NCBI GenBank assembly: GCA_017506865.1
Contig: JAFCMP010000445.1
Coordinates: 620,001-684,000, forward strand
Direction: 5' to 3'
Source: Tribonema minus
Taxonomy: Eukaryota; Sar; Xanthophyceae; Tribonematales; Tribonemataceae
Length of the DNA stretch: 64,000 nucleotides
The notes under the pieces are model-generated. The model was not told the DNA's origin. It was given only the letters and a program-made list of their open reading frames with translations, and made no database searches. The translations under genes and the position numbers were made by a program. Below, in pieces: positions 2,166 through 64,000 of this stretch (the first letter of the stretch is position 1; each line of letters starts with the position of its first letter).

Positions 2166-5100
2166 TCACCGGGGGGATGCTGCGCAGCGCCGCGGCCCGC
2201 AGCACGCACGCAGCGCTGTCCCGCAGCGCGTTGCGATTACACCACGTTTCGCGTGGAGTCCTGCTGCCGCGAGAGCATTCCCCCCCCCGCGCCGCCCCCC
2301 CCCGGGGCTGAATCTCCTCCAACACCCCCCCGCGCATGGAGTCCTCCGAGGAGGGGGACGCAGGGGGGGGGGGGGGCGCCGTGCGCGCGCGCGCGCGCCG
2401 CGGCGCTGCTGCTGCTGCGGGCGCCGCCTGAAGGCGAAGATGCCGACGCTGAGGTGCGCCAGGCACGCGAGGCCCGTCATGACGTACGCGAAATCGACAT
2501 CCACGTGCGACTGCGTGCCGCACTGGACCTGGAAGCTGTGAGGGCGGGGGGGGGGGGGGGCACAGGGGTTAGCTCAGCTCACGTGCGGCGGGGCGGGAGG
2601 GGAAGCGCAACGCTCCGCGTTGTGGCACCCGCGCGCGTGACGACACGCAGCCTTGGTGTGCGTGCACATCTGACGGCGCGCAAAGATCGCACGCTGGCCC
2701 CAACCCTAATGCTAGGACTGTGCAGCCGACGCCCGCTCGCCTGCTCTCGCACGCGCGCCGCGCTGCGCTGCCGCCGCCGCCGCCGCCCGCGACCGCAAAG
2801 CGCTCTCCCATCCCATCCCAACCCAACACTTACTCCAACCCTGGCCTCGAAAAGAGTGACGCCAGCCCCCGTAAGGGAGGACCTGTCATCGCGCTCACCT
2901 GCTCTCGTACACGCGCCGCACCGCGCCGCCGACGCCGCCCGCGACCGCAAAGTAGAAGCCCAGCAGGCCCGCCGCGCAGAACCACGCGCTCAGCGCGAGG
3001 CTCGCGCGGCACAGCGCGCCGAGCCAGCGCCCCCGCGCAGCCTCGCTCCGCAGCCCCCCCCCCCCAACCCCCCTTTCGCCCCCCCCCCAGCCCCCCCCCC
3101 CTCGCAAGGGGGTCCACTTGGGTGCCCGTCGCACCTCATGCGGCCGCCGCGGCGCGGAGAGCCCTCTGTGAAGGCTATCGGCGCGCGGTGCCGCACTGGA
3201 AGTTGCCGTAAAATTCTCGTGGCAGTGTTCGGCGGGGTTCCAGGGGAGGCCCCCCCCGGGCGCGTGGGGGGGGGTGTGGGGTTGCGGCGGCGCGCGCCGC
3301 TTGCGCCCGCACGGCGGCGTGGAGCACCACGACGGCGCGCGCTGCTGCTGCTGTTGCTGCCGCTGCTGCTGCTGCCGCGGCTGCTGCTGCTGCTGCTGCT
3401 GCTGGTGCACTTGCTGTGATTCGTGCCGCTGCTGCTGCTGTTGCAACTGCTGCTGCTGCTGCTGGAACAAATGTGTTGAGCACTGCTGGTCCTGCGTGCC
3501 GTGCTGCGGCGGCGGCAGCGGGTGCGCACCGTGGCACCGCTGCTGCTGCTGCTGCCGCTGCTGCGGGTCTGCGGCAGGCAGCGCCGGCAGCGGCGACGGC
3601 AGCAGCAGCAGCGGCGGCGCGGGCTGCAGCTCGAAAGACGCGGGCAGCGCATCCTCAGGGTATGGCGTGGGGGTTGCGGAGGGGTCCATGTAGGGGTCTT
3701 CAGGGGGGGGGGGGGCGCGGCTGCTCAGCGGCCGGCAGAGGAGCGCTGCCACCAGCACCAGCGCGGTGACGTTGAGGCACTGTGCGTGTGCAGTGGAGGG
3801 GGATTTGGGGGGGGAAGGGGGGATTGAGGGATGGCGCGCGTGCGTGCTGTGAGATGAATGCGTGGTTTTTAGCAAGGGAGAGCTGCGTCAATCCTGCCAT
3901 TCCTGACGTTACGGCATGACTGAGATCAACGCAGCATGGGCTGCGCTTGCGGGGAAAAACGTCATTCGCGCGTGCCTGGGCGCCCTGCCATGATTCGTGA
4001 ACCCGCATTCCACACGAGAGTGCAGCGCGCGCGCAACTCACCAGTCCCATGATGTGGCCCAGCCCGACCAAGCCCCCTAAACACCCCGTAGCAGCGCTCA
4101 GCTCGGACAGGGGGTAGCTCGGCTGCACGCCGTTCCCGCCAATGTTGGTCCGTGCCGCGCGCCACCCGACCCAGAAGCCGAGCGCGCGCACGGAGCTCTC
4201 CGAGGAGGGCTGCAGGTCGCGGCAGTCGACGTGCGCCGCAAAGTAGCCTGCGTGACAGTTACGGCAGCGCTTACGTCAGTTAATTACGTCATGGGTAACG
4301 CGTAGAGACGTGTGCGTAGCCGGCACGACACTTATGTCAATTCGCGCACGGAGCTCTCCGAGGAGGGCTGCAGGTCGCGGCAGTCCACGTGCGCCGCAAA
4401 GTAGCCTGCGCGGCAGTCGCGGCAGCAGTTACGTCAGTTACGTCATGGGTACAGCGCGGGGGCGTGATGCATAGCCGGCATGACAGTTACACCCAGAAGC
4501 CGAGCGCGTAGACGGAGCTCTCTCCGAGGAGGGCTGCAGGTCGCGGCAGTCAACGTGCGCCGCAAAGTAGCCTGCACGCGACCAGTTACGGTAGGAGTTA
4601 CGTCAGTTACGGCATGGATAACGCGCAGAGGCGTGATGCACGACAGATACGTCAGTTATAACGCAAGCGCGCACGGAGCTCTCCGAGGAGGGCTGCAGGT
4701 CGCGGCAGTCGACGTGCGCCGCAAAGTAGCCTGCGCGGCATTTGCGGCAGCAGTTACGTCAGTTATATCATGGGTAAAGCGCGGAGGCGTGATGCATAGC
4801 CGGCATGACAGTTTCACCCAGAAGCCGAGCGCGCGCACGGAGCTCTCCGAGGAGGGCTGCAGGTCCCTGCACACAACGTGCGCCGCAAAGTAGCCTGCGC
4901 GGCAGTTACTGCAGTTACGTCATGGGCAAAAGTGAGGACTTGAGCCCAATTAGCATCAGATGTTGCAAGACTCTTGTCGGGCCAAGAGTAGACGCGGAAC
5001 CTAAGTCGACCATTGGCAAGCTTACACTGAGTCGACCGTTGCGAATGAGCAATGACACATGATGCTGAGCGCTGCTGCATTCTGCAACTGCTTCGCGCAG

Positions 5101-5977
5101 CGATCGCAGGCTGCGAGTATGACCACCTCTCACCCATGTGTGGGCGGCGCTGAGGCAGATCGGGCTCACGCGGAGCACTGCTGGCGCGCAAAACAGTTAC
5201 CGCCGTAACCGCTTTGCAACCGGCATGGGACCGCCCGTGTGGCCGCTCCTCGCGCGCAGCAGCGGCGCTGAGGCAGAGCAGTCATACCAGCGCCAACTCG
5301 CGGGCGCATGCAGCGTTTGCCACTTGACCTCTTGCAGAGTCAACTTGCTTGCTTGCTGTGTGCACTGCTGTCGCGCAAAACTGTCACGCCGTAACTGGTT
5401 CACCATGCAAACATCCCCAGTGCTCACCCGCGTCGGTGGCGCTGAGGCACACCAAATTCATGCCGAGCACTGCTGCACGCGAAACTGCCGCGCCGTGGCC
5501 GCTTCATCACGCAAACCCCTCTCACCCCTCACGCCCGCGTGTGTGGCGTTGAGGCACACCACTTTCATACTGAGTGCTGTCACGTGAAACTGTCACCCCG
5601 TAACCGCTTCATCACACAAACCGCCTCTCCTACCCGCGTCAGTGGCGCTGAGGCACACCAGGGTCACGCCGAGCACTGCCAGCAGTGCTGCTGTCATGCG
5701 AAACTGTTACGCCGTAACCGCTTCATCACGCAAGCCTCTCTCACCCCTCGCACCCGCATCAGTAGCGCTGAGGCACACCAAATTCACGCTGAGCACTGCT
5801 GTAATGCAAAAGTGTCACGCCGTAACCGCTCTCACCCGCATCCGTGGCACTAAGGCACACCAGGTTCATGCAGAGCACGCCGAGCAGCAGCAGCGCCAGC
5901 AGTATCAGGAACGGGTACGCCTCGCCGCTGTCGCGATCTGCAGCGTCCGCGCGCGCGTGGCTGAAGTCCCGCAGCGG
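2166..5977 (-). CDS. Unidentified multi-pass membrane protein with poly-Gln tail (partial model)
   Basis: Family not recognised. Exons that join in phase are 5977-5836 (47 codons plus 1 nt), 4247-4042 (206 nt) and 3779-2899 (881 nt open frame), followed by 2535 to a stop at 2166-2168. Exon one carries a hydrophobic segment around YPFLILLALLLLGVLCMNLV. Exon two ends in a Gly-rich hydrophobic stretch (TGCLGGLVGLGHIMGL). The third opens with LNVTALVLVAALLC, continues Pro/Gln-rich with several runs of 5-8 Gln (about 3340-3575), and ends in a hydrophobic stretch (ALSAWFCAAGLLGFYFAVAG). The last has a helix around YVMTGLACLAHLSVGIFAF. The 881-nt exon may hide an intron near 3050-3250, where the reading frame crosses G/C homopolymers, and the tail after about 2430 is doubtful. 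The start and upstream exons were not found. It is transcribed away from the acyl-CoA synthetase gene. Confidence 0.4.
2726..2793 (-). repeat. 3'-edge echo of the 3779-2899 exon
   Basis: On the minus strand this repeats the end of the exon that finishes at 2899: a TTTGCGGTCGCGGGCGGC-like core, then a CGTGCGAGAGCAG end directly followed by a donor-like GCGAGC in place of GTGAGC. It lies downstream of the full exon, as all 3'-edge copies in this window do. Confidence 0.65.
3340..3575 (-). repeat. CAG/CTG trinucleotide-rich block coding poly-Gln
   Basis: Interrupted CTG repeats on the + strand, read as CAG codons on the minus strand. They give several runs of 5-8 glutamines separated by short His/Ser/Arg/Pro interruptions in the tail of the unidentified membrane protein. 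The opposite strand and other frames give poly-Ala, poly-Ser or poly-Cys open frames, which are shadows. Confidence 0.8.
4320..4895 (-). repeat. Four 5'-edge echoes of the 4247-4042 exon
   Basis: Four decayed copies of the exon's acceptor and first ~70 bases end at about 4405, 4571, 4730 and 4894, with a spacing of about 160 bp. Each retains the peptide YFAAHVDCRDLQPSSESS in recognisable form (the last is altered to AHVVCRDL), and most keep the ALGFWV segment before the similarity stops. All lie upstream of the intact exon in the sense of transcription. The intronic parts of the unit (TTACGTCAGTTACGTCATGG-like) are repeated too, so the unit spans the splice junction. Confidence 0.85.
5105..5835 (-). 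repeat. About six 3'-edge echoes of the 5977-5836 exon
   Basis: Tandem decayed copies with a spacing of roughly 110 bp, near 5115-5185, 5235-5310, 5425-5480, 5535-5590, 5630-5690 and 5745-5815. Each carries a version of the exon end (peptide NLVCLSATDAG) followed by a GTGAGAG-like donor on the minus strand. All are downstream of the intact exon. Confidence 0.8.
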
Positions 5978-8238
5978 CTGCACGCGGCGAAGCCATTGAC
6001 ACGGTTACACGTGGTGTGAGGGTTAGAGTTTGTGGTGAGGGTTAGCCCTTATTAAGCGGCTAAAGTATGACAAAGTACACCTCGCCGCCGCTGCGTCCGT
6101 GCGCGCATGGCTGAAGTCCCGCAGCGGCTGCGAGGTCACGGGGCAATGGAGTGAACGCCGATGATGTGCTGAGCGATAGACTTGGGATGAGGGCGCCGCG
6201 CGTGAAAGAGAGCGCGCACCTTGGGGGTAGGGCTAGGGTTAGCGTGTCGTTCGGTGGCCGTTCGGAAGCGACCGCCAGAATGTGGGCTGCTGCGGTGGCG
6301 CACGCGCAGCATGGCTCAGGGGGGGTGCCCGCCGTGACGTTTATGAACGTCGCAGCACGCGCGCCGCAACACCCGACGCAGCGCGGCTTTACCGTATGCG
6401 TGGTGTGTGCACGGAGCGGGTTGCGCCGCGGCGCGTCACGCGCGCAGTGAGACGGCTGCGCTGCGATTGCGACGTGGCAGGGCAACGGCAGTTACACAAC
6501 CGGAAACTGGCCATAGCTCTCTTCCGCTGCTGCTGCTGCTGCTGCCGTCGTGCAACCTGCTGACCAGCGCGAGCGGCAACGCCTGCGCTCACGCATGGCG
6601 GCGTATGTTTGCTTGTTCGCTGGTGACGACATCGCCAGCGTGCATAGCGTGGCCATCCGCGCGCGCGCCGTGATTGTGAGCAAACGCTGTGGCCGCTGCT
6701 GCTGCTGCAGTGTGACTGCCGAGCAGCGCATGTCGTATGTAACATACGGTATGTTCGCTGGCAGCTCAACCCCCAGCACTGCAGGATGCTGTACGTCAGC
6801 TGGCGGTGGCGGTGGCGGCGGCGGCCGACTTGACAGTGCAGCACACGCAATGTGAACCTTCTGCCGCAGCTGCTTGTGCAAAGGGACGCACATTCGCTTG
6901 TGCAAAGGGAACGCGCCCTTGAGCTGCAACGTCTTGTGCAGTGACTTGTGTGGATACTTTGGAGTCGCCTGCACCTGAGACGCAGTGGCGCCAGCTGCTG
7001 CTGGCGCTTTGCAGTCCAGCCAGGCCCCGCATGAAGTAACGGAAGTGCCATGGCAGCGTGCTCGCAGCACAGATGCTTGCGTCAGGAGGAGAGTCCCCGA
7101 GATGCATCAGAACGAATGGTGCGCACTGGTGGCGCAGCAGCACTGAGTACTCTAACAGGTACCAACAGACACACATGCATGTAGTGAGGCTGCTCTTGTC
7201 CTCAGGGCGTTGTGAGTTGACCTGGATGCTCGTGAGGGAACACATGATATCGCCCAGTCCGACACAGCTGCTCGTAGATGGTGCATTCTAATAGAGTGAC
7301 GAAGATTCAGAGAACGTGATCTCTGTTACCACGCTTGCATCAAACCCAATGGGGCAGCATCCATCTGAGCGCGGGCGAAAACAGCCAAGCCAAAGCCAAA
7401 AGCGGGGGTCCGCGAGCAGCCCACAGAGGCTGGCTCAGCTTCGAAGGCGATGGTAGCCTCATGATGTGTTAAGTACAATGCCTTGCTTGGTCTTACGCTA
7501 GCTGTGCTATGCAGTTGTTGACGAGAACGAAACAGTCAGGTGTCAAGGGGCATCAAAGCAGACGTTTGCCCCAAGCACTCTCTAAAGTTGTGCCAGCCAC
7601 ACACCAGGTAGCGAGTGGCTCCACAAAACGCAGCTGAGGACAGAGCTTGCATCCTCTCTGTACCAGCAAGACTGGTGGATAGGCACCGCGGGCGACTTGC
7701 CGCACATGAACGTCTCGAAGGCACTTTTGGGCAAACATCGCTCAGAACTGTACCTTGATGTCCAGCTTGCGCCTGGTTTCCCGTCCTCCTCGACCATGTT
7801 CGCCAGTCCCTTGATCTCCTTGCTGCTGCTCAACGGGCTTGCCAGTGCCTAGCTCCAGCTCCAGCTGCACATCAGCTTTGGGTGCTGTGTCCCTCATTTT
7901 CCCAAGCGGGCCTCTCAAAGGACAGCGTGCTACTCTGTGCGCCGCATGGCGGCAGGGCCGGGGAGTATTGATCCCCCACGACCACCTGCTGCTGCCAGTC
8001 ACTGTCTTTCTGCGCACCTACTCTACGTTACACGTCAAAGGAACACTTTGGGGCGGTCGATGGACAAAAAGTATTGCGCCGCGATCCCTACAGTTAGCGT
8101 TCGAGCTGTTTATGTCCGACCTACACCATCGAGGCCCCTGCGCCTTGAGCTACTCGTAAAGCGAGGCAGTGGCGATGTGCAGGGGGTTATGGTCTGCCGG
8201 CATCATGCCGCCGCCACATACTGCTGTGGCGATCCAAC
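5978..8238. other. Divergent intergenic region / unlocated 5' exons of the left gene
   Basis: This separates the minus-strand membrane protein gene from the plus-strand acyl-CoA synthetase gene, so promoters of both should lie here. I see no TATA-like element I would defend. It contains the echo at 6080-6130, short GCT/GGC trinucleotide runs (about 6525-6545, 6690-6710, 6800-6830), and TTAGGG-type fragments near 6020 and 6230. Upstream exons of the minus-strand gene probably lie here. The segment 8017-7770 (minus) reads with a plausible exon end at a GTACAG donor, but two frames look equally good, so I leave it uncalled. Confidence 0.4.
6080..6130 (-). repeat. 5'-edge echo of the 5977-5836 exon
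   Basis: On the minus strand this repeats the acceptor (CTCGCAG) and the first ~40 bases of the exon, peptide PLRDFSHARTDAAA. It lies upstream of the intact exon. Confidence 0.75.
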
Positions 8239-11200
8239 ATGCGCTACGAGAAAGAGAAGGTGCAGCATGACAAGGTGTACTCCGTCATCCTGCCGGGGAC
8301 AGAGACGCCGACAACCACAGCCATACACAGGGCGCCAGAGACACCAGACGCTCTGCTCGACAAAATACCTGGACACGATGGCATCACCACACTCGCAGAT
8401 GTGTTCGCCTATGCTGTGGCGACCTATCCAACTAACCCTCACCTGGGCCATATCGTTGCCACCGAGACGGGGGGGCAGGAGTTTGTCTGGCAGACGTATT
8501 CCGAGGTACTTCTGCTTTCCTTGAAGTACGGTTATCTGCTTCAGCGCCGCGTTGGCTGCAACGACCGTGCGGGACCTCGTCTGTCGTCTTCATCAACTCG
8601 ACTCACTGTCAGAAATCGTACACCTCAAGAGCCACGTAGCGGTGGGGTCGAGGTCGAGCCCCCCCTGTAACACAGACTTTCACAGGGCACGGAAGGTGGC
8701 ACTTGAATGATGACCCACGCACCAGCGATCGCTTTGCGGCTCGACGCCAATCAGCTGATGACATCATGCTGATTTTCTACAAAGATGATGTCTACTTCAA
8801 CTGTGAATTGTGTGACTGAAGGCCCCTTCCTTCTAACCTTTAGCAGATACAGGTGCATTGCCCAGCTGTATGGCAAAATACGCGTGCTAAGCTCATTGCG
8901 TATGACTGGCGTGTGCTGCCGGCGCAACATGCAGTCACCTTCCCGAAAATCCCACAAGAAACAACTCATGACAGCACGTGCTTGCCATCCGTCGCAGGTG
9001 CATGTACGCGCCGTGAACTTTGGCAAGGGGCTGGTCGCCAAGGACCTCATCCCCGTCGTCGATGGCATGAAGATGCTGGCAGTGCTCAGGTTATACTCAA
9101 CTTCAACTTCAAACTCAACCCTAACCATAGCCCAACCTGGACCCCTAACCCTGCTCTCTGGAGCCGTAGAAGTAGTTTTCATGGTCGGCGATGCCAAGCG
9201 CAAGCAGCAGTGCTCACAGTATCAATCTCGAGTCCGCCATCCCGACCGCACGTTGCCCCTGGCTCTACACGCGCATAGTTGAGTTCTGAACGGCCACAGA
9301 GCCGCCATCGCGACACTCCAACAGCTGGCTAGCTGAACATGTATCTGCTGTCCGGAGCGTGACATGTTCGTGAAATGTTGATTCCCCATGCTTGTAGCGC
9401 TGCATTTGCTGGCACAAACGCTTACTCTAGTACTATTTCTGAAGTATCTGGTGCTGCAGCTGAGCCCATTGTGCCCGTGTGCCGCGCGCTGTGGCGGTCG
9501 TTGCGCCGCCGCCGCCGCCGCCGGCGTCGCAACGCTGCGCCAGCCGCTGCGCGATGCATTTGCCGCCGCCGAGGATGCGCTAGGCAGTGCTGGTATGTCG
9601 CGCTGCGACCGCAGTCATGCGGCGTACTTGGTGCGGCGCGCGCATCTCGCACGCGGCGCGCTCGTGCACGCGGGCACGGCATTCTGCGCACTGCACGCAC
9701 GCGTGTGCCTTAGGGTTAGGGCTAGGCCCATCTTTATGTGTCAATTCGCCGCTTAGAAGTGTTTTGATTCTTTGTAATCCTGCATGTCAGGTAAGGAGTA
9801 GGGTTAGGGTTAGGGTTACAGACCGCACTCGCCCGGTCATCGTGCACGCCATAACACGCGCCCTTGTATGGAGGGGACAGGGTGCGGTTGCGCAGGGCGG
9901 GGCACGCGTACTTGAAGTTTTGCGGTGCGCTTATTTAAAGTTTTCAAGTCGGCGCGCACGCACCGCGCGCTCCGCTCCGTTCTCCCTTCTGCACACGACG
10001 CGCGTACTTTGCCGCTGACAGATGCGCAAATGGCGCACGCACAGTTGACTTTTTCTTGGTGACCGCGCGCGCAGTGGCAGTTTCGTTTTGTCACTTTGCA
10101 AGCGCGCAGCACACGCTCCTTTGCGCTGCCACCACCATCCAACGACACCGTCGTGTACTTCAAGGCAAGGTGATCATGTACCAATGTGAGCGTTGAGACT
10201 CTTTACGGCTGGACACGGAGACTGGTACATAGCAAGCTTTATGCAGCTTATCAGGGCTTTGCGCGCCCTGAGCATGAATCAATCGCAACGACCTAACAGC
10301 CGCCCCCCCCCCCCCCCCCTCCCCCCCCCGACCTGCGCCGCCATCTGCAATATTCAAATCAAGCAATCAAGAGCCCCTGACACACACAAGTGACGCCCCC
10401 CCTCCCCCCCCCCCGCGCCCCTCTGCGCGTGATGGGCGAGCCAAATGCGGTACATGCCTTTTTTGAAACAACCTCGGAGCTGATTATCTGGGCTCGTCTG
10501 CGCTCTGAGCAAGCATCAATTTAATGCAACTGACAAACACACGTGACGCCCCCCCCCCCTCCTCCCCCCCCCCCCGTCCCCTCTGCGCTTGCAGCAAGAA
10601 CCGCGCCGAGTGGGTGATAGGCGAGCAGGGCCTCATGATGCAGGGCGGCACCGCCGTACCGCTATACGACTCACTCGGGCCTGACGCGATCCGCTACGCG
10701 CTCAGTCAGACGCAGCTGAGCACTGTGCTGTGCTCGCGCGACGAGCTGCTGCGGGTGGTGGCGTGCGCCAACGGCTGCGCGTCGTTCAAGGTGACCGCGC
10801 GTCGACACGGCGCTGCCTGTGCCCTGCTGCCGCCCGGGCGCCCTCCCCTTTGCAGACGGTAACCGTGATCCATGCGCTTGAACCCGTGCAAATTCTACTG
10901 TGCCCGACGAGCCCAGCCCTGCGCACTTCGTCATGTGACTCTCCACTGACGGCGTGCGCATGGTGCCGCCCCTGCGATGCTCCCCTCTGCAGACAGTGGT
11001 CCCGATTATAGGTCCCAGCTGTTACAATGCGCCAACGAACCCTGCGCACTTCACCATGCGACGCTCCACTGACGGCGTATGCCGTGCTGCGTCCCGTGCT
11101 CCTCCCGTCTGCAGACCGTTATCCTGATGGACGAGCCAACGCCCAGGGACAGCGAAGAGGCCTCGGTGCAGGGGCTCAAGCTCTACAGCTTCACCGAGAT

Positions 11201-11801
11201 TGAGGACGCTGGCGCGCACTACGACGCCTCGCGCGACTGTGCAACGCCGCCGACGGGTGAGTCACAGTTGAAGTTTGATTGTCACTTAAAGTGTGACGCT
11301 CCACTGGTGGCAGCGAGGTGCTGTTGATGTGCTGTTACGGGGTGGGCACGAGTCGAGCAGCCGCGTGGTGCCGCCGACGCGTGTATCACATGTGAAGCTC
11401 ACCTGGCACGTGAAAGTTACCGCTACATGTGGCATATATTTATCAATCAATATTTGCAATTTTTAGAACTTAGTTGTTGAGGGGCTGTAAACATGTTTAT
11501 ACGGGGTAAGCTCGAGTCGCCCAGCCGTGTGGCTGTCGAAGGGGTGACTCACACTTGAAGTTCAATTGGCGGTGGAAGCTTCGACGCTCCACTGGTGGCA
11601 GTGCGCAATGGCTTGACCTTCTGGTAGGCACACGGGCGGCACTAATAGTGTATCCCAAAGTACATCATATATTTTGTGTTTAGAAATATGTTGCCTTATG
11701 CCCGCAAACCCCCTCCTCCCCCCCCCCCCCCCCCCCGCCGCCCTAGGCGACATGGCCGCGACCTTCTGCTGCACGAGCGGCACCACCAGCAGTACATCAC
11801 G

Positions 11802-11869
<68 letters not shown>

Positions 11870-14800
11870 CACACAATGTGTGTGTGTACTGACGTATGTC
11901 GCGCGACGCACCCCCCCCCCCTTCCCCGCCCCCATCTCAGGCGACATGGTCGCGACCTTCTGCTACACGAGCGGCACCACCGGCCTGCCCAAGGGCGCCA
12001 TGCTGACGCACCGCAACATGCTCTCCGCGCTGGCGTCCGCGGCGACGCGCGGCGTGGTGCTCTCGTCGAGCGATGTGCACCTGTCATACCTACCCCTGGC
12101 GCACGTGTTCGAACGGCAGGTATATGTGTGCGCGCTTTACCATAGCATAGTATGCATTGTGTGATACTGTATTAGGTACAAAGCGGTATACAGAAGTACT
12201 GTAACGCTACACATGGCGTACTCTGGCCGTGTCATGACACACATGGCAGAATCTAAGGGGGGGGGGCACATGGAGGAGGACGTAGTTGAGGATCCCGAGA
12301 TGCCATTTGGCGGCGGCGGCGTTTGAATGGTTATCGTTGAGACACTTTCAGAATGTCACACGACATGTAGATTCCGTGCAGCAAGCTTCAAGTTAGATGC
12401 CATTCATCTGGGCTTTTTCGCGCCCTGAGCGAGAACTAATAAGAAGTACTGTAATGAAGCTCTGTACACTTCTGACAAGGATGTAGACGCCGTGCTCTCG
12501 TCGAGCGATGTGCACCTGTTGTACCTACCCTTAGCGCACGTATTCGAGCGACAGGTATGTACGTACATGCGCACTGTACCAAAGCATTGACCAAGTAAGT
12601 GCTACACTGCAGAAGCTCATTCTGGCTCTCTAACACAGTACAGGCATAGAAAGTATGCTACAGCTACATAGGCGTCGTGCTCTCGTCGAGCGATGTGCAC
12701 CTGTCGTACCTACCCCTATCGCAAGTGTTTGAACGTCAGGTACGCATGCGCGCGTTATACCATAGCATACGCAAAACACCATTATACTGCAGAAGTACTG
12801 TGCTGTATCGCTAAGTACATGCTATGGTACATGTTGCCTGCCGCAATGTATTTTTTGTTGGTTCTCGCTCAGGGCGCGAAAAAGCCCAGATGAATGGCAT
12901 CTGCCTTGAAGCTTGCTGTACGGAATCTGCATGTCGTGTGACAGTCTGAAAGTGTCTCGACGACGACCACTCTGTACTTTTTATTAATTCTCGCTCAGGG
13001 CGCGAAAAAGCCCAGATGATTGGCATCTAGCTGTAAGGAATCTACATGTCGTATGACAGTCTGAAAGTGTCGCAACGACAACCACTCAAACGCCGCCGCC
13101 GCCAAATGGCATCTCGGGGTCCTCCCCTACGTCCTCCTCCATGTGCCCCCCCCCCCTGTACTATACTGCAGAAGTACTCTGCCATGGTAAATCTCTACAC
13201 AACAAACGTTGGAGTAAGGTACAGGCGTGGTGCCATCAACGAGCGATGTGCACAGTATGATATAGATGGGTGTCTTGAATCGATGGTGATCATTCACAAA
13301 TACCCAAATGTGCATTTTCCCACAGGTCCAGTACATGATCGGCGGTCGCTGCAGTACATGATCGGCGGTCGCTGCATATACATTGATTTGTTTCGATGCT
13401 TTTCCTGAGTCTCTTACCACAATCAGCGCCTCACGTCATGACTCATGACGTCACGCATCCATTCATTCATTCACCCATTCATTCATTCACTCATACTGCA
13501 GGCCCAGTACACGGTGATGCTGGGCGGCGGGCGCTGCATATGCACATCAGTACTTCAGAAGTATACTTCAAAATATTATAAACGTGTAGAAGTGTAAAAA
13601 TTCCTTGGTTGTTCTGGCGCCAGAATTCATGTCTTGAAACATGATGGTGATCAGTCACAAATACCCTAATGTGATTCGCAATATTCATTATTCCACAGGT
13701 CCAGTACATGGTCATGCTGGGCGGCGGGCGTTGCGGCTTCTACGCCGGCTCCGTGCTGACGCTCGGCGCGGACCTCAAGCTGCTGCGCCCCACGGTGTTT
13801 GTCTCCGTCCCACGCGTGCTCAACAAGGTGCGCACCGCTTTCGTACTTGGGCCAAGTCAGTGAGGAGGGGTGTGTGTTGTCCCGCTTCCCCAGCGCTCGA
13901 CGAGACGTGCACTGTTTCTTTCTTCATGCGTTCTCAGACGAAGCGTATTGCACCGAATCCTACAAGGAAAAAGGGGGGTGCATCACGCGCCAGCGTTCCC
14001 CACCAAAGCGCTCCGAAATGTTCAGTCTTCTGCACTTGGTATTGCCTTGTGACCCGGTAGGATTTGGGGTTAGGGTTTGCCGCTGCAGCGCTCTGCAAGG
14101 GCTCCGCATCCCATGCTTGGCATCCAACCCGCCTGCACCCCGTCAGGCGCTGTATCCCCTTTCATGCTGCCGTTGCCGTGACGCATGTCGCTCTACAGTT
14201 TGACACCCTGCGCGCATCATCGCTCTGATGCAGCTCCACGGCTCCGTCATGATGGCAGTGAGCAAGTCCGCGGTCGCGAGCACGCTCCTCAAGAGCAGCT
14301 TCCACTTCTTGTGAAGGTCATTCATCATTCATGCTGCTATGTTGCCGTGACAGCTCTGATGTACAACGCGCTCAGTTACCACCGAAATGCCCAGGCCTTG
14401 CCCCCTACCCCCCCCCTGCGCCCCCCATCCTACCCTCGAACCTTAACCCATTCCACCACTCACCCATGCGTATCATCGCTCCCGTGCAGCTCCACGGCTC
14501 CGTCATGATGGCGGCGAGCAAGTCCGCGGTCGCGAGCACGCTCGTCAAAGAGCGGCCTTCGCTGCTTCATGTTGTTGATCATTCATGCTGCTACGTTGTC
14601 GTGACAGCTCTGTACAAAGGCGCACAGTTTCACCAGACCCTGACCCTAAACCTAACCCTACCCCCAAACCAAGCCCCCCCTACCCCTAATCGTATCCCCC
14701 CCCCATTGCCCATCATAGCTCCGATGCAGCTGCACGGCTCCGTCACGATGGCGGCGAGCAAGTCCGCGGTCGCGAGCACGCTCCTCAAGAGCAGCCTCTG

Positions 14801-20800: not shown

Positions 20801-20914
20801 GCCTTGTCATTTTTTCAATGGTTTTTGTTTTGACACACTCAAATATTCATCTTGATTCTTTTTCCTTTGAACTAAATATGTACTCGGTGCCACCGCCGCC
20901 ACCGCTGCCGCCGC

Positions 20915-20984
<70 letters not shown>

Positions 20985-21126
20985 CGCCGCTGCCGCCGCA
21001 GGCGACGGGCGCCGCGGAAGGCCTGCGCGGCTTCGAGCAGGTCAAGGCCCTTGTGCTAACCGCAGAGGGGTTCACAGACTAATTATCTTGATTATTTTTC
21101 ATTTGAACTGAATCTGTACTTGGTGC

Positions 21127-21159
<33 letters not shown>

Positions 21160-21295
21160 TGCCGCTGCAGGCGACGGGTGCCGCGGAAGGCCTGCGCGGC
21201 TTCGAGCAGGTCAAGGCCCTTGTGCTAACCGCAGAGGGGTTCACAGACTAATTATCTTGATTATTTTTTATTTGAACTGAATCTGTACTTGGTGC

Positions 21296-21328
<33 letters not shown>

Positions 21329-21644: not shown

Positions 21645-21675
<31 letters not shown>

Positions 21676-21974: not shown

Positions 21975-22013
<39 letters not shown>

Positions 22014-53424: not shown

Positions 53425-53455
<31 letters not shown>

Positions 53456-55998: not shown

Positions 55999-58399
55999 TC
56001 AGAACGTGCCTGCAAAGGCTTTTGTAGGCGCGACGGTGGCGGCAGGGGCGGAGGGCTGCAAGGGGGGGGGGGCAAGCGGAAGAGGGGGGGGCAGGGGAAG
56101 AGCGGAGGGTGGGGGGGCGGAGGGGCACGGGACAGCAGTGAGCGTGGTCAATGGAAGCGAGGGGAGGGAATGCAGCAACAGCACACGCTCATGAGTCAAA
56201 TAGACTTTTGTCAAGCGGTGGTTGTGCCTGCGTGCTGAGAGCGCACCGACCATTACCCTCGGGCACGGCGCACGACAGACCCGCGGTGGGGGGTGGGGGG
56301 TGGGGGGGAGCACGGGACAGCATCGAGCATGGCCAACAGCGAGCGTGGTCAACAGAAGCGAGGGCCGAAAGCGCGCAGCTCAATCAAACGTCGTCTGCCG
56401 CCGCTCATCGAGCTAGCGCGCTGTGCGGCAGTGCACACATTACCGACGTCCACGGGTGTGCACTCGCGTGAGACGGCAGAGTGCTTCTAAGACGCAGCCC
56501 TGGGCATGGCAAACGGCACTCAGCGCTGAGCACTGGCGCCCCAGGACGAACACACACACACACACACATCCGAAAGCGATCCGTACGCGCACGCAGCCGT
56601 GCGGTATGTAGTACCTGTGGCGGCGCGGCCTTGGGCGTCGTGAACGTCACTCGACGCTGAGCACTGGCGCCACAGAGCAAACACACACAGACAGTCAACG
56701 CGATTTATACGCTCACACAACCGTACAGAAGTACTGTATGGAGTCTGCGTGGAGCTGGGTGGCCCTAAGACGGGTCTGTCTGTGGGGGGAGAGTCTTGTA
56801 GCTTTGTTCAGTATCCCTGCTAGTATGTGGGGGACAGTCGCTTGCGGGTGCTTTGTTGGGGGTGATGTGGGGGGCGGGGTGCGGCGTGCAAGCTTTGCAT
56901 GCTACACCCAAGAGTGAAAACAAGGCGACACACCTACAACATGGCATTTCCACAGCCACAAGTGGAATATAATAAAAGTACTGTACGGCAGTACCTGCGT
57001 CGCGGCCTTGGGTGTCGCGAACGTCATGCGCGGCTGCTTGTCGAGCGCGTTCTGCGCCTGCGCCGCGATGAAGCGCCACGTGAGGATGGCCAGCACGAGG
57101 CCGCTCGACAGCATGCCGAGGCCGAGCATCATCCACCCCAGCGCGTAGTTGATGTCGTGGCACCCCGTCTGCAGCGACGTGCGAGGTGGCATCGCGTTTG
57201 AGCGCATTGACGTATTTCAAGAGGCATCATCAAAGGGCCAGTGCACTGCGTGTGGCATCAGAAAGGCGAGTGCATGCCGAAGCCGAGCATCAGCCAGCCG
57301 AGCGCGTCGTGGCGACCAGACTGCAGCGGCAAGGAGAGAGACATCAAAGCGCAGCCGTCTTCGAGCAGTTGACGTGGCGTTGGACGAGGCGAGAGCAGTG
57401 CGGGCTGCGTCAGGAAGATAAGAACATGCCGAGATCGAAAATCATAGAAGTACAGCCATTCGCGTAGTTGATGTTGTGGCAGCCCGTCTGCAGCGGCGGG
57501 GGCAGAGACATTGCAACGTGGCGGTAGTCCAGAAGTTCACGCGGCATCGGACGAGGCGAGAGCGGTGCGTGCCGCGTCAGAAAAGGCAAGAGTGGCCGAG
57601 CATCATCCAGGGCAGCGCATAGTTAATGTCGTGGCTGCATGGGCCCTGCCAACGAGCAAAGTCACATTTGCTGTACTGCGTGGCAGCAGCGCGCGTGAGC
57701 AGGCCGAGGCCCAGCATCGACCAGCGCAGCGCGCGGTTGCCGCTGTTGTTGAGCGCTGTGGCTGAGGGCGGCATTCATCTCCAATTGAGGCACTTCTAGA
57801 AGCGAGAACGCCGCACACCAGCGCTCACCTGGTACACCGCGCTGACGTACAGGTTGATGGTGCGGCAGCTGAAGGCATTATCTCCAATTGAGGCACTTCT
57901 AGAAGCGAGAACGCCGCACACCAGCGCTCACCTGGTAGACCGTGCTGACGTACAGGCCGTTGATGGTGCGGCAGCCTTTAAAAGGCATTCATGTTCAATC
58001 AAGGCACTTGTGGAAGCGAGAAACGCTGCGCGCCAGTGCTGACCTGGTACACCGCGCTGACGTACAGGCCGTTGATGGTGCGGCAGCTGAAGTCCTCCTG
58101 CGCCTGCGTGGCGAGCTGATTCGCCGCGTAGCTGAGGTCGTTGAGTAGCTGCACCTGGGCCCCCACGGCGGCCGCGTTGCCGCCGCAGACCAGTGCATTC
58201 TGCGGCGCGCGGGAGGGGGAGGGGGGGACAGCAATTCTTAAGCAAGAAGACCCTATGAAGCTTTACTGTAACTTGAGACTGATTTCGGGCTATGCGCTTC
58301 TTGGTGACTCGCCATGAAACTTCAACATGGTACACGACGGCTGCGTTGCCGCCGCAGATTCTGCCCACCAGTGCATTCTGCGGCGCGTAGGAAGGAAAG

Positions 58400-58430
<31 letters not shown>

Positions 58431-61400
58431 AATCCTCAAGAAGGCGTACTGTTCTACTCTTTTGGTGACTTGCCATGCACTTCAACATGGTACACAACGG
58501 CCAGCGTTGCCGCTGCAGATTGTGCTCACCAGCGGCAGCTGCGCGGGGGGGGGGGGGGGGAGGGGCAATCCTCAAGCAGGTGCACTAGTCTACACTTGTC
58601 TTGATGACGTGCCATATAGGTACTTCAATTTAGTACACGATAATGTAATTCAGAGGTGACGGAAGTATGGGAGCAGGGCAACACAAAGCTGGCGCTACAC
58701 TCTGAATACGGTACTGGTGATGCAGCAAGTGTCAGGTGGGGGAGTGCGCGTCGTGTGCATCAGGAGATATGTGGCAACGCATACACCCCTGTGCGTTTAC
58801 CAGGTGTACATGCGTACATGCACATGGCCTGTGGGTAGACAACGCCCGCTGTCATTTTCTTGGGGGTACATGCATACACACACACACACACCTGTGGCAG
58901 GCAGTTACACAAGGACTTGAGGCAACGTACACACAGACCCAGTGACGAAAGTAGGCATGCAGGCATCGAGGCATGCGTGTGTACATATATGCGTACCCAG
59001 CAGCGTTACCTGCGCAGATCTCCCGATATCCACCCTGACCCGGGATACGAGCACAGTGCGGCACACCTTCAGTCTCCCCCCTCTACTTCTTCAACTGAAC
59101 AATCTACTTGGTTGACTGAGCAGGCAGATCTCAGCACTTCAATTTTAATTTGAAGATGCACAAACTTCAACAAAATATGTTGTGGTAGGCGCCAGCCATG
59201 TCACGTCACAGAAGCAACGCACGCGCTGCCGCGACTGAGTCGTCACTACACACCTGGCACTTCAAATTCAACTTCAAGATGCGCGGCGTCGGCAACACCA
59301 TGTCAGAAAGGCAATGCATGCACTTGACTGCGACAGAGCAGTGCGCACTGCCGCATTCGGCACTTCAAATGCAGTATGTGACGATACGGTGCTGTCGCCC
59401 TCACCCGCCATGCCAAAAGAGTGCACCCCGATTGGCAAACTTCAACTTTGACTTCAAGGCAGCGTACGCACCCCAAAGAGCGCGTCCGTGAACGGCACGA
59501 TCTTGCCCATGGCAGCGACCAGCAGCTGCTGCACATCTGCTATGGACCCAAAGATGGCGGAATTGCCTTGGCACTCCTGCGGCAGGGAAATGGAGCAGCG
59601 TGTGAACATCAGTTGAGCGGCTAGTAGGTTGTTGTGAAAACGAGCACAAAAAAAAGTAGAGCTCTAGGTGACAAGGTGTGGTCAGCCGCCAGTGCTTTCC
59701 ACTAGTACCCGTGGTCGCCGCTGCTGCAGCAAATAGGCCATGAGTCAAACAGTGCCACCATATCGTTATTATATTGTGAGGGGTGACGGCAATTTGCTGA
59801 GGGCTGTATGCTCTGCCCGCCAGAGATTGTGGCAACGCAACGGCCGCAGTTTTTGCGCAACAACGCTCGCCTACTAAGGTCAGAGTGAGGGCTAAGGACA
59901 TCCGCAGGTCTACGAGTAGAATCAGGGCGCAAAATGCCATGGAAGTAAAAATAAACAGGCCAGCCGTAACTAGGGAAGAGCGCCCCTTTGGATAGCACGC
60001 ATTACATCAACTGTTCATGAGATGTTGTGTCAACCACACGAGCACTGCAACGACAACTGCATAAGTAATATGACCATGTTTTTATATTGTACTTCTCAGA
60101 ACAAAAGTATTGCGCAGCACAATTTGAAGCTGAAACACGCAGACTGTTCGAAGTTGAACCGTGCAACCTGACGCACCATTTGATGCAGACAGTTCCAGCC
60201 CTCCCTGCCAGCGCTGCAAGGTGCAACGTGTTCCCAGCAGCTACTCAAGCATTGCATGGAGTGCCGTTGCTGGTGAACAACACAACGAACTGGGTGCCCG
60301 GCACACTCAGAGAGCTCGTGCACACAGGACGCTGCTGCTGTTTGTATCAGCGCAGGTGGTCGCGCCGCTTTCCACGTAACAACACAACCACGACATACTT
60401 GTCGGTCGCGTTTGCATTCAAGTCCTGCACGCGCACGGACGGCCACAGGAGGTGACACTCCACAATTCGAGTAGACTCACCACGTAGAACACGACCACTT
60501 CGTTGTTATCGGTGACCTCGATGGTGTTCGCGTCCGGGTCCTGCACGCACGCGCGTGGGGACAGACATCAAGAGGTGACACTCCACACTTCAAGTTGACA
60601 TCAAAGGGGGCTTTGAAGTCAGCGCTCAGCGCCCTCCGCATCACCGACTGAAGTGCTGCGCGGCCTCGCTCGCGCATAGTCTGCACCAACAGGGGGTCGT
60701 GATTGCGCACGGGTCGTGGTGCACATGGTACGCATACTTCAACTTCATCAAGTGGCACACGCGCAACACGCCGTCTGACCTGTTCGCGCAGCTTTAGAGC
60801 ACTGCAACGACGCGTCGCCGTGAGTGCCGTCGCACGCGCTGCCAGTTGCCTGGACCCGATTTCCCTGCATCACTCTACCAGTACACTGATTGGTGCTGCG
60901 TGAGACGTGATCTGACAACATGCGTGGCTTTTATGCCGGCCCTGCTCTGCTCGCCCTCAGGGCAGTGAAGCCCCCAAGCTCCACAGCAGTGCTAAGCACT
61001 GACATAGCGGAAGTCGCCGCTGGCCGGGACGCAGCCGACGGACGCCCGTTAAGCACACCTACCCACACAACCACATCATTGCTCAGCGCTCAGCGCTCAG
61101 CAGCGCTCGTTGCCGGGCAGAAACCGTCGTCGCCCGTGGCGGAGCCGAAGGGTCACACATGAAGTATCGTTCACGAGTCCTTGATGTACTTGGGTGTACA
61201 GTTACTGTACCCACAGATGTCATTGCTGCGCAGCACCTCTGTGCTCAGCTTCGCTTGCTCGCCTGGCAGAAGTCGCCGCCCGCCAAGGCGCAACACCATG
61301 AAGGCTGCAAAGTATTGATGAATCTCTGAAGTGCTCAACTGAAAGTTTCAAGCACTTGAGGCCCATACCTACTCACCCATGCCATCAAGTGCTTACAAAG

Positions 61401-63181
61401 AGTCAACAACGCTCAGTACGCAGCAGCGCTCACCTGGCAGAAGTCGCCGCCGGCCATGGCAGAACCTATCGACGCCGTGAAGATGATCCACATGGCGGAG
61501 AGCAGTATCACCGTGAGGCACACCAGGAGCCGCCGCGCGCACTTGGAGCGGCACGAGTCGGTGCCGCCCTTGAAGACGGGCACGCCTGCACACCGCTCAG
61601 CAAGTGGCGCATTTACTCAGAGTATGGTTCACACGAGTAATTTTTGGCCCTTGAAGATGGGGACGCCTGAGGCAGCAGGCGAAGTTTTCACTCATCATTC
61701 TGTCGCGTGATGATCTGTGTTGCTCAAAGGACAATGAGTTGCATCTCGATGGATTAAACCCAACTTGGTGCCGCCCTTGAAGGCGGGCACGCCAGCGCAT
61801 CGCTCAGCCAATGTGCTGCGACTGAACACAAGACACTTGGATGTCATTCGCTCAGTTTTGTTTTTCTTTGTTCTGGGAAAAAACCCTCGGCGAAGGATCG
61901 TACCCCAGTGCATGCAACCAAGTCGGTGCCGCGTTCAAGGCAGGGGCGAGTCCGCACGGCGCGCGCGATTAGCAGGTTTTGAATGCATTGGTCAACATTG
62001 GTGCTGGGCACTGCGCCACACATATCTGGTGTTACGCATCGATCGTGAAGCCGTTGATAGGTGGACACGTACCTAATCTGATGACGGTGACTGCTGCGAG
62101 CAAGTTGGAGAGCATGCAGACGCCCAGCAGCACCGATGCGGTGATGATGACAGGCAGGCGCCATGGGTAAGTAGGTAGCCCCAGCGATTGGTACACCTGC
62201 CTACCTGTTTTGATGACGATGACTGCAGCACCGCCATCACGGGCGGGCAGCATGGGTAGGTAGCCATACTGTAGCAGCCGATGCGACTACCTACCTTTTC
62301 TGATGACGATGACTGCTGCGAAGAGGCAGACGCGCATGCAGCACCGCCACAGCGATAATCACAGGCGGGCACCAAGGGTAAGTAAGTAAGCTCAGCGATC
62401 GATATACCTGCTTACCTTTTTTTATGACGAATAGTGCTGAGAAGAGGTAGAACAGCATGCAGACGCCCAGCGGCACCGAAGCGGTGATGATCACGGGCAG
62501 GCGCCATTGACAAGTAGGTAGCCCAGCGATTGATATACTTGCTCACCTTTTTTTATGACGATGAGTGCTGCGAAGAGGTAGAAGAGTATGCAGACGCCCA
62601 GCAGCACCGACACAGTGATGATGACAGGCAGGCGCCATGCCTGACTGTCGTCGATGCCGTCCGCCACGTTCTGCGACTGTTGGCAGCAATGCAGGGGGTG
62701 CGGCAGCAGCGGTGTCAGCAATGGGAGGCTTGCAACGGAGGAGGCTACAGGACAAAAGGAAGGGGGGCTCTCAGCCACGTTCCGCGACTGTTGGCGGCAA
62801 CGTAGGGGAGACGGGGCGGCAGCAGTGTCAGCAATGGGAGGCTTGCAGCGGAGCAGCCTACAGGACAGGAGGGGGGGGGGGGGGGTTGCAATGAAGCAGT
62901 CTACAGGAGAAGGGAGGGGGGGGGGGTGCAGTTGCTCGGCTTACACAAACACAAGGGCATGCTACATTGTAAGGCACGAGGGCGGCAACCCTAAGTGTAC
63001 AGCGTACTGTGGTTTGGAATGTGAGACGTTGTGTGTACTGTTTAGTGGTGGCGAACACACATGCAAATTCATGGTTTGTGAATCATGATCAGGAGTCATC
63101 GCTCATGTTGCGAAGGCGCGCAACACGGCCAGTGGCATCAGCAAGTGGAGGCTTGGAGCGCACGAAGCCTGACTTGGCGTC

Positions 63182-63214
<33 letters not shown>

Positions 63215-63758
63215 GGGCGCTTGTATGTACTCAATCTGCGCACACATGAGCTCGCTAGCGAGCAGCGTGCAAGCACGAACGAGACTTTGAGCCCAGCTCT
63301 AACCGTATAGAGTATTCCCGTTTTCCTTCTGAGACATTGCACCTCACACTGCACTCGCGCCCTTCAGCAACAGAGCTTTGGACTCACAACAGAGCATAAG
63401 ACTCACAATAGAATAGAGCATAAGAAATTGCATCGTCACGCACCATGCGGATCACATCGTCCACCGCTGCCGACTTTGCAACCCTTCAGCAACAGAACAT
63501 CAACTCCACAACAGAGCATCAAACCCAAAGCGACTGCATCATCGTCACGCACCACGCGGATCACGTCGTCCACCGCCGCCGAGTTCGCAAGCCCATTCAT
63601 GGCGTCAATGTACTTCTGCAGATCGCCAGTAACGAGGTCGGCCGGCGGCGTGGGCAGATCCGGTATGAGGCCTGGTAAAGGCAGGCCGTTGATGCACGCG
63701 ACGCCGCTGTCGATGACGGACTGCGCCACCCCGAGGGCCCTGGTGGTGAGGTCGGCGG
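55999..63758 (-). CDS. Tweety-like membrane protein, copy 2 (5' part beyond window)
   Basis: Visible exons in order of transcription: 63758-63553, 62676-62547, 61585-61434, 60540-60481, 59576-59472, 58199-58044, 57168-56995 and 56055-55999 (stop at 55999-56001). They total 1040 nt, 345 residues plus stop, and phases match throughout. The exons align one to one with copy 1. Four have exactly the same length (130, 152, 60 and 105 nt) and carry recognisable sequence: SQNVADGIDDSQAWRLPVI, IGSAMAGGDFCQ, DPDANTIEVTDNNEVVVFYV, AQEDFSCRTINGLYVSAVYQ, TGCHDINYALGWMMLGLGML. TM3, TM4 and TM5 are present. The TM1, TM2 and short linker exons of copy 1 have no counterpart before the right edge. The C-terminal exon (PSAPAATVAPTKAFAGTF) follows a long C tract and AG, and it differs completely from copy 1's acidic tail. 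The TM4 donor is GT here, GC in copy 1. Confidence 0.65.
56138..56390 (-). repeat. Intron-internal duplication near the last exon, copy 2
   Basis: GAGCGTGGTCAATGGAAGCG (56139-56158) recurs as GAGCGTGGTCAACAGAAGCG (56341-56360), each with a GGGGCACGGGACAGCA-like segment before it. Confidence 0.75.
56605..56665 (-). repeat. 3'-edge echo of the TM5 exon, copy 2
   Basis: The minus strand reads VTFTTPKAAPPQ then GTACTA, against MTFATPKAATQ then GTACTG at 56995. A CACTGGCGCCAC/CCAGGACGAACACACA flank is repeated between 56530 and 56690. Confidence 0.85.
57270..57745 (-). repeat. Four 5'-edge echoes of the TM5 exon, copy 2
   Basis: Copies of the acceptor and exon start, reading about SGRHDALGWLMLGFGM (57278-57324), TGCHNINYANG (57455-57491), HDINYALPWMMLG (57597-57637) and SGNRALRWSMLGLGLL (57695-57745). 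The intact exon reads TGCHDINYALGWMMLGLGML. All lie upstream. Confidence 0.85.
57785..57990 (-). repeat. Two 3'-edge echoes of the 58199-58044 exon
   Basis: CACCTGGTACACCGCGCTGA (57827-57846) and CACCTGGTAGACCGTGCTGA (57928-57947) on the + strand, each running on through GATGGTGCGGCAGC, repeat the exon end at 58041-58086. The flank TTGAGGCACTTCTAGAAGCG is repeated with them and also resembles that of copy 1. Confidence 0.9.
58340..58550 (-). repeat. Two 5'-edge echoes of the 58199-58044 exon
   Basis: CAGTGCATTCTGCGGCGCG with GCGTTGCCGCCGCAGA (58342-58388) and a weaker GCGTTGCCGCTGCAGA... CAGCGGCAGCTGCGCG (58503-58545) repeat 58174-58210. Long G runs on the + strand follow each. Confidence 0.85.
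61000..61290 (-). repeat. Three 3'-edge echoes of the TM4 exon, copy 2
   Basis: CTGGCAGAAGTCGCCGCCCG (61263-61282), GCGGAAGTCGCCGCTGGCCG (about 61007-61026) and GGGCAGAAACCGTCGTCGCC (about 61116-61135) repeat the exon edge at 61434-61455. GCTCAGCGCTCAGCAGCGCT-like flanks are repeated too. Confidence 0.8.
61640..61945 (-). repeat. Three 5'-edge echoes of the TM4 exon, copy 2
   Basis: CCCTTGAAGATGGGGACGCC (61649-61668), GCCGCCCTTGAAGGCGGGCA (61771-61790) and GTGCCGCGTTCAAGGCAGGG (about 61924-61943) repeat the exon start at 61561-61590 (GTGCCGCCCTTGAAGACGGG). All lie upstream. Confidence 0.8.
62060..62515 (-). repeat. Four 3'-edge echoes of the TM3 exon, copy 2
   Basis: Copies near 62065-62165, 62200-62240, 62295-62375 and 62412-62510 repeat the exon end (SVLLGVCILFYLFAALIVIK plus donor). 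The nearest still reads SVPLGVCMLFYLFSALFVIK and the farthest SVLLGVCMLSNLLAAVTVI. The flanks repeat GTAAGTAGGTAGCCCAGCGA. All are downstream. Confidence 0.9.
62765..62860 (-). repeat. 5'-edge and flank echoes of the TM3 exon, copy 2
   Basis: CCACGTTCCGCGACTGTTGG (62775-62794) repeats the acceptor edge CCACGTTCTGCGACTGTTGG at 62664-62683. The downstream flank (GGCAGCAGTGTCAGCAATGG) is repeated as well. Confidence 0.85.
63438..63482 (-). repeat. 3'-edge echo of the 63758-63553 exon
   Basis: CACCATGCGGATCACATCGT, then CCACCGCTGCCGACTT, repeats the exon edge at 63551-63590 (CACCACGCGGATCACGTCGT, then CCACCGCCGCCGAGTT). A flank with CAACAGA and GAGCATA/GAGCATC elements is repeated too. Confidence 0.85.
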
Positions 63759-63867
63759 CTGTTGCAGTTGAAGTTGTTAGGCGAGCGGAAATCGCAGGGG
63801 ACGGGTTTCAGCTCTTTCGATGCAACGAGTTTTCAGGCAATACTGAGAGCATGCAGTTGTCGAGGTG

Positions 63868-63935
63868 TCGATGACAGACTGCGCCACAGCGAGGGCGCAG
63901 GTGGTGAGGTCGGCGGCCGTCGAAGTTGAAGTAGG
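63868..63935 (-). repeat. 5'-edge echo of the 63758-63553 exon
   Basis: GATGACAGACTGCGCCACAG, then GGTGGTGAGGTCGGCGGC, then CGTCGAAGTTGAAGT, repeats 63714-63775. It lies upstream of the intact exon and shows that the transcript continues to the right. Confidence 0.85.
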
Positions 63936-64000
63936 ACAAAGCAGCGGAGCCGCACAGAACAAGGTGAGCTGGTTTGACGCAGTGAGTGAGGCTGGTTGCG

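Follow-up and report, generated by a model that had tools for sequence, protein, structure and literature searches.

Why should the edges of an exon recur as partial copies beside the intact exon, and always on the same side of it? The question was raised by a first-pass annotation of 64,000 nucleotides of Tribonema minus DNA (contig JAFCMP010000445.1, positions 620,001 to 684,000 of the forward strand; hereafter the window), part of a 1.97-Mb contig in an assembly of 158 Mb and 554 contigs. It described fragments of exon 5' edges upstream of the exon and fragments of 3' edges downstream. We examined these exon-edge copies in five genes of the window and in kinesin and dynein genes. The observation was confirmed, for the window as well as for other parts of the genome, and the copies belong to tandem arrays, most of which are anchored at an exon junction.

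To predict window exons, we trained a small gene model on kinesin and dynein exon (24,477 bases) and 15 kinesin introns; 42 exons were taken from its predictions, with strand and exons picked by eye. Each exon with 40 bp on either side was compared by blastn with the 2.5 kb around it. This search returned 38 copies of 5' edges, every one upstream of its exon, and 37 copies of 3' edges, every one downstream, with at least one edge copy at 24 of the 42 exons. The resulting 75 agree with the more than 70 that had been counted by eye. A further 11 matches were intron-only. Among exon-internal fragments, six nearer the 3' edge lay downstream and four nearer the 5' edge lay upstream; one, of 25 bp at +1854, contradicts the polarity rule. 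Controls gave seven matches on the opposite strand and six in reversed sequence (both strands).

Two further matches appeared to break the rule: an upstream match to the 3' edge of exon 48057-48185 and a match to the whole of exon 15729-15800. Both predicted exons sit inside 3'-edge copies of the preceding exon. Alignment over 15633-16484 is gap-free in 116 of 120 listed homologs once 15729-15800 is taken out, and exon 48057-48185 has a poor acceptor (score -1.4). From these features, the likeliest reading is that both are echoes which the predictor mistook for exons.

Outside the window, 84 kinesin and dynein exons were defined by Pfam matches, independently of the predictor, with the exact junction picked by splice-site score and the duplicate loci L029, L032 and L036 excluded. 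Forty-two of the 84 had at least one same-strand match. Same-strand matches totalled 131, not all of them edge copies, versus 13 on the opposite strand and 21 in reversed sequence (both strands); in long exons the Pfam match often stops far from the exon edge, and absent matches are uninformative there. Comparison with the other five kinesin loci gave 125 matches but was discarded as an uninformative control, because their exons are paralogous.

Across 188 junctions of the window, kinesin and dynein genes, we then counted only copies that span a junction, a definition that itself requires the unit to include adjoining intron. At 73 junctions there were 75 acceptor and 57 donor copies, 65 of them in the window and 67 in the kinesin and dynein genes, and none of the 132 had the wrong polarity. 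The strict polarity first described therefore stands in this larger set. The copies run head to tail on the same strand at regular spacing, the hallmark of a tandem array, and opposite-strand matches remain near the reversed control. These arrays support the proposal of local tandem duplication across a single exon boundary.

The polarity, by itself, says less than it seems to. A duplicate that spans an acceptor leaves the whole exon after the last copy, and one that spans a donor leaves it before the first. Random tandem duplication, simulated together with substitutions, indels and deletions while the exon was kept whole, produced 165 edge copies on the right side and none on the wrong side, and the polarity therefore needs no special mechanism. 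It is a geometric consequence, which shows a tandem-duplication origin and retention of the intact exon, and no more. The first-pass derivation of the polarity from tandem duplication is thus reproduced by simulation, but the polarity, being purely geometric, adds no independent evidence. That the copy keeping the exon whole is the one used was also proposed, and agrees with the acyl-CoA synthetase gene of the window, in which the intact copy fits the protein. Its 12 exons join into 560 residues with no stop; nine of the 11 joins are gap-free (within four residues) in at least 112 of 120 listed homologs, and the two weakest in 97 and 106 of 119. In this gene, the one checked, the alignments indicate that the protein gains nothing at most joins.

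Anchoring was measured in 47 introns, 32 from the window and 15 from kinesin genes, with 94 intron ends. Exons 6892-6968, 8331-8505, 8998-9089, 15729-15800, 37745-37801 and 48057-48185 were left out here and in later tests as weak or as echoes. One window "intron", 22199-23604, is an intergenic gap between two genes and has no array, leaving 46 true introns, and a kinesin "intron" of 2,526 bp (contig C141) may conceal a small exon. Repeats were detected by comparison within each intron, locus-wide self-blast being too insensitive. Local direct repeats span 6,311 of the 18,180 bp in the 15 kinesin introns; 23 repeat pairs lie at acceptor edges, 14 at donor edges and 25 at neither, the latter mostly within the same arrays. 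Against these 62 pairs, the opposite strand gave four and reversed sequence five.

Over all 47 introns, 54 of 67 arrays (81%) contact an exon junction, with 27 of 47 donor ends and 27 of 47 acceptor ends bearing an array. Uniform placement, in which an array could reach at most 60 bp into the exon on either side, predicts 10.2 ± 2.8 (standard deviation) junction arrays. Tandem arrays are usually expected to ignore gene structure; these do not, and the 15 homology-defined kinesin introns alone have 20 of 23 arrays in contact with a junction. Anchoring, unlike polarity, is a non-trivial feature that goes beyond uniform placement. The suggestion that duplication is focused on exon edges is upheld by this excess and by the simulations described below, although "nearly every boundary" was too strong, since pairwise alignment finds copies at 54 of the 94 intron ends and edge profiles at 61.

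Local direct repeats make up 38.6% of intron bases, or 42.5% with edge profiles. Coverage is 0.40-0.48 in the first 500 bp from the nearest junction, then drops to 0.27-0.33 between 500 and 800 bp and to 0.07-0.17 between 800 and 1,200 bp. Eleven slices outside gene models, that is, where no gene was accepted (three hold one weak predicted exon each), have a mean coverage of 3.7%, and seven have none. A high duplication rate throughout the genome is therefore unsupported.

The arrays also carry information about how they grew. Copies are spaced by a median of 155 bp (quartiles 120 and 181) and are 69-100% identical; the copied exon part has a median of 42 bp at acceptors and 54 bp at donors, and was limited to 100 bp by the query used. 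Exon breakpoints within an edge differ by a median of 3 bp (107 pairs, 57% within 5 bp), and between edges by 21 bp (14% within 5 bp). Breakpoints shared in this way make one founder followed by array expansion the likelier course, and repeated single duplications at each edge, as originally envisaged, are probably wrong in most cases. As for timing, copies in the two Tweety-like paralogs of the window mostly match their own exon with a higher score than the paralog's exon, and two match both equally. At least many arrays therefore postdate the gene duplication: many, not necessarily all, arose anew at the same edges after the Tweety-like genes split.

Once formed, the copies decay about neutrally. 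Acceptor copies diverge by 10.8% in the exon part and 19.5% in the intron part, and donor copies by 11.1% and 19.7% (sums over the base table), an intron-to-exon ratio of 1.8. A ratio near two is what we expect when the copies drift freely and the real exon alone is constrained.

To explain the arrays, we lean, if only slightly, towards exon junctions being hotspots at which short tandem duplications originate, later to expand and decay. The founding duplication could stem from fill-in or slippage during repair of a break or nick close to a spliced junction; our guess is that junctions may be hot through lesions of this kind tied to transcription, splicing or chromatin. The founding event would duplicate about 155 bp, mostly with 20-70 bp of exon and the remainder intron. 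At a 5' edge only the last copy would then be followed by the complete exon, and at a 3' edge only the first would belong to it, and the partial copies would fall outside the exon. Further exchange or slippage would expand the duplicate to as many as seven detected copies, tending to keep the founder's exon breakpoint, and these would decay at a roughly neutral rate. Splicing would stay on the intact exon, probably as a copy carries one splice site of the two and is not recognised as an exon. Anchoring would on this account be mutational in origin, with exon definition explaining why the arrays are tolerated.

Polarity would come for free, and the intron part of copies would be predicted to diverge about twice as much as the exon part, if tandem duplication fell uniformly within introns and edge copies were just recognisable for longer beside a real exon that does not decay. 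We nevertheless consider uniform duplication improbable. In neutral simulations (120 introns at each of three rates, with units of 60-230 bp), the share of arrays at junctions was 0.28 for a repeat coverage of 0.19, 0.31 for 0.31 and 0.39 for 0.47, against the 81% observed. When exon bases were omitted from detection, 42 of 55 arrays still lay at junctions versus 23-29% in simulation (two rates), and for pairs of at least 88% identity, exon bases again omitted, the figures were 18 of 23 versus 25-34% (two rates). The bias persists without exon bases and in young copies, which speaks against mere longer visibility beside a conserved exon. The coverage of 3.7% outside gene models likewise speaks against uniform duplication. 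Nor is it credible, except at the very margin, that the arrays are artefacts of assembly or sequencing, a possibility that the first-pass annotation had itself raised: tandem repeats are a classic site of assembly error, but assembly error is made unlikely by copies up to about 30% divergent and a pattern found on many contigs and both strands that favours splice junctions.

Selection could retain the copies for a role in splicing, either as extra sites that strengthen exon recognition or as decoys that tune it. Of 75 acceptor copies, 70 retain an intact AG, versus 84% for other AGs in the copied exon; the last acceptor base is kept in 75 of 75 and the G of the donor GT in 98%, and arrays recur at the same edges in two paralogs. 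Against this, the AG excess is weak (54 of 59 in a stricter set), the donor GT (intact in 40 of 57 copies, with 12 more reading GC; 24 of 37 in the stricter set) does not exceed the 77-79% of other GTs, and overall divergence is near neutral decay. We judge selection unlikely, and somewhat less so than uniform duplication. Decoy sites are not visibly removed by selection, and the evidence that acceptor AGs are retained is weak at most. Real sites must then presumably be told apart by context, for which exon definition is the obvious candidate and one that fits the intact decoys. We give very little credence to a further alternative, that the introns were made or spread by a known route, whether through introner transposons or through an AGGT-bearing exon segment duplicated in tandem. 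The stramenopile algae include Aureococcus and Florenciella. Both genera carry introners according to one report (PMC9860276), and boundary-crossing duplication with intron gain is described in another (PMC4974935). Here, however, the arrays lie at intron ends, the acyl-CoA synthetase protein is unchanged at most joins, and each array copies its own exon edge and is therefore not one repeated element, although no search was aimed at an introner family across the genome.

Several observations weigh against junction hotspots or leave room beside them. Arrays are absent from seven of the 46 true introns, and 13 of the 67 arrays lie off junctions, some of them perhaps beside unpredicted exons. Repeat coverage is 0.32 in the last distance bin (1,098 bases beyond 1,200 bp), contributed by long introns that may hide exons. 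The simulations ran without gene conversion or homology-driven expansion, and either process could give an advantage to arrays in which a conserved master copy is kept; the slight excess of intact AGs (70 of 75 versus 0.84) leaves room for selection on the copies. One of four paralogous intron pairs still aligns (17 matches), so that some array sequence may be older than the gene duplication, and two copies match both exons equally. Finally, the data come from one genome and, within it, from five window genes plus kinesin and dynein genes; for all the window genes but the acyl-CoA synthetase, the exons depend chiefly on a small custom predictor. A bolder form of the hotspot proposal, which we hold only tentatively and would sooner doubt than accept, is that a process coupled to splicing or junction chromatin keeps writing exon-edge copies into introns, which would thereby lengthen at both ends and be made up mainly of decayed edges.

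The gene model and Pfam together made out five genes in the window, one fewer than the six first claimed; a Pfam search with ten long open reading frames of the window found no match. The first gene, of unknown family and on the minus strand, would encode a membrane protein, judging from its translation. Its exon 5836-5977 has a 5'-edge copy at 6090-6131 and 3'-edge copies at 5743-5796, 5622-5685, 5524-5574 and 5423-5470 (region 5423-6131). Also on the minus strand, exon 4042-4247 has four 5'-edge copies, 88-94% identical and upstream in the transcript, at 4343-4440, 4496-4609, 4667-4765 and 4813-4922 (region 4042-4922), and exon 2899-3100 has a 3'-edge copy at 2740-2800 (region 2740-3100).

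On the plus strand lies the long-chain acyl-CoA synthetase, which matches PF00501. Its exon 11941-12119 (region 11720-12769) has a 5'-edge copy at 11720-11793 and 3'-edge copies at 12492-12583 and 12671-12769, and exon 13699-13827 (region 13307-13827) has 5'-edge copies at 13307-13340 and 13499-13537. Around exon 15458-15633 (region 14212-15817) are 5'-edge copies at 14212-14299, 14450-14561, 14702-14796, 14921-14995 and 15186-15268 and a 3'-edge copy at 15695-15817. Exon 17137-17248 (region 17137-17930) is followed by 3'-edge copies at 17319-17407, 17527-17618, 17639-17727 and 17887-17930, with an exon-internal fragment at 17431-17480, and exon 20272-20413 (region 20272-20545) by one at 20480-20545. 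The last exon found, 22025-22199, is preceded by seven 5'-edge copies in an array at 20889-21923 with a period of about 169 bp (region 20889-22199). The Nudix gene (PF00293), on the same strand, has 3'-edge copies of exon 23604-23762 at 23835-23946 and 23978-24086, with a period of 143-144 bp (region 23604-24086). Two other plus-strand exons bear copies: 25436-25574, with 5'-edge copies at 24842-24872, 24971-25031 and 25235-25324 and 3'-edge copies at 25673-25722, 25823-25870 and 25959-26006 (region 24842-26006), and 26655-26731, with a 3'-edge copy at 26845-26890 (region 26655-26890).

The Tweety-like paralogs (35017-48624 and 56995-63739, both on the minus strand) match PF04906, the second just under the curated cut-off; we take the Tweety family to be known from animals. 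In the first, exon 48392-48624 of Tweety-like gene D has a 3'-edge copy at 48025-48141, which overlaps the predicted exon 48057-48185 taken above as an echo (region 48025-48624). Single 5'-edge copies accompany exons 45460-45532 (at 45758-45830; region 45460-45830) and 42338-42467 (at 42655-42725; region 42338-42725). Exon 41495-41646 has a 5'-edge copy at 41760-41854 and 3'-edge copies at 41387-41425 and 41332-41367 (region 41332-41854), and exon 38655-38714 has 3'-edge copies at 38455-38500 and 38281-38326 (region 38281-38714). For exon 36570-36734 (region 36358-37461), 5'-edge copies lie at 36910-36956 and 37405-37461 and 3'-edge copies at 36442-36508 and 36358-36425; for exon 35017-35196 (region 34795-35997), 5'-edge copies lie at 35330-35395, 35510-35580, 35663-35742 and 35968-35997 and a 3'-edge copy at 34795-34831. 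In the second, exon 63553-63739 of Tweety-like gene A has a 5'-edge copy at 63866-63932 and a 3'-edge copy at 63431-63484 (region 63431-63932). Exon 62547-62676 (region 62170-62825) has a 5'-edge copy at 62776-62825 and 3'-edge copies at 62381-62507, 62282-62374 and 62170-62229; exon 61434-61585 (region 60995-61808) has 5'-edge copies at 61647-61669 and 61767-61808 and 3'-edge copies at 61257-61289, 61087-61146 and 60995-61025. Further along, exon 58034-58199 has a 5'-edge copy at 58344-58407 and 3'-edge copies at 57884-57975 and 57778-57874 (region 57778-58407), and exon 56995-57168 has a 5'-edge copy at 57461-57498 and a 3'-edge copy at 56613-56649 (region 56613-57498).

Protein matches indicate that the host is an ochrophyte stramenopile alga. 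A kinesin on another contig is nearest to proteins of Choristocarpus (74% identity), Chrysoparadoxa (73%), Heterosigma (68%) and Phaeothamnion (65%) among the best 120 of 6,505 matches, and one window gene is nearest to Tribonema and Chrysoparadoxa proteins (50%). We take the matched genera to belong to the ochrophyte stramenopiles. A fragment of plastid rbcL, presumably of the red-lineage type, lies in the nuclear genome (locus L075, 1501-1689, contig C334), and a TGA occurs close to its start. In the window, long C or G runs are scattered at 1281-1400, 34150-34178, 58402-58430 and 63187-63217.

The introns have other features of their own. GC stands in 12 of the 17 donor copies that lack GT, and a kinesin intron on contig C180, placed by eye, also seems to begin with GC. 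Introns of the window and of loci L039-L044 are enriched in words based on TTGAAGT/ACTTCAA; each 7-base form is present in only 16-17 of 47 introns, and the motif was therefore rejected as a shared driver. Telomere-like tracts (TTAGGG/CCCTAA, 9-29 bp, in both orientations) are frequent in introns of the same loci, window examples being 18949-18973, 19385-19406, 26432-26460, 38059-38074 and 47569-47592. They number 40 in 53,112 bp of intron, 4 in 14,240 bp outside gene models and 1 in 24,477 bp of exon, with 2.0 in base-shuffled introns. In primates and rodents, such tracts are reported to be inserted during double-strand break repair (PMC7215372). By analogy, the tracts hint at break-prone introns and do not prove them.

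Among published systems, the nearest printed case that we found is the potato RdRp gene, in which a tandem genomic duplication crosses an intron-exon boundary (Ma, Lan and Niu 2016, PMC4974935). As in our arrays, that duplication extends from the 3' portion of an intron into the 5' portion of the exon that follows, and copies the acceptor too; unlike our arrays it is one event in one gene that produced a new spliced intron and inserted exon sequence, whereas here 54 of 94 intron ends are affected, frequently with several copies each, and the partial copies stay within the intron. The Rogers model, as outlined in the same paper, also invokes local tandem duplication with splice-like sequence, but there an AGGT-containing exonic segment is duplicated and becomes an intron, while here the unit holds pre-existing intron and the protein is unchanged where checked. 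Introners resemble the arrays in being a genome-wide process, known in algae, that adds intron sequence to genes; they insert copies of themselves in many genes, unlike arrays that copy their own adjoining exon edge (PMC9860276). Direct repeats at exon-intron borders were likewise reported by Rogers and Bendich (2025, PMC11782384), as repeats of 4-30 bp (mean 11.4) at both borders of an intron, unlike units of about 155 bp in up to seven detected copies on one exon side. Small tandem duplications arise by fill-in at DNA breaks (PMC8355091), a possible founding route only, the abstract making no link to exon edges. Literature searches, some of them covering the top of thousands of loose matches and most subscription papers lying outside their coverage, listed no described genome-wide, junction-anchored system. 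None of the ingredients is new; what is apparently new, at least to us, is their scale and anchoring.

The arrays are a concrete local source of intron length, with about 40% of the examined intron in local direct repeats and most arrays anchored at an edge. They are also natural splicing experiments, in which decoys with the real site's own flanks lie a few hundred bases off and are apparently unused, which opens exon definition to direct testing in an alga. Were junctions true mutation hotspots, damage to DNA or its repair would be tied to splicing or transcription and would leave readable scars. Should a junction-coupled process indeed be writing these copies, the genes of this alga would hold a dated record of it, and splicing would work through dense, near-perfect decoys.

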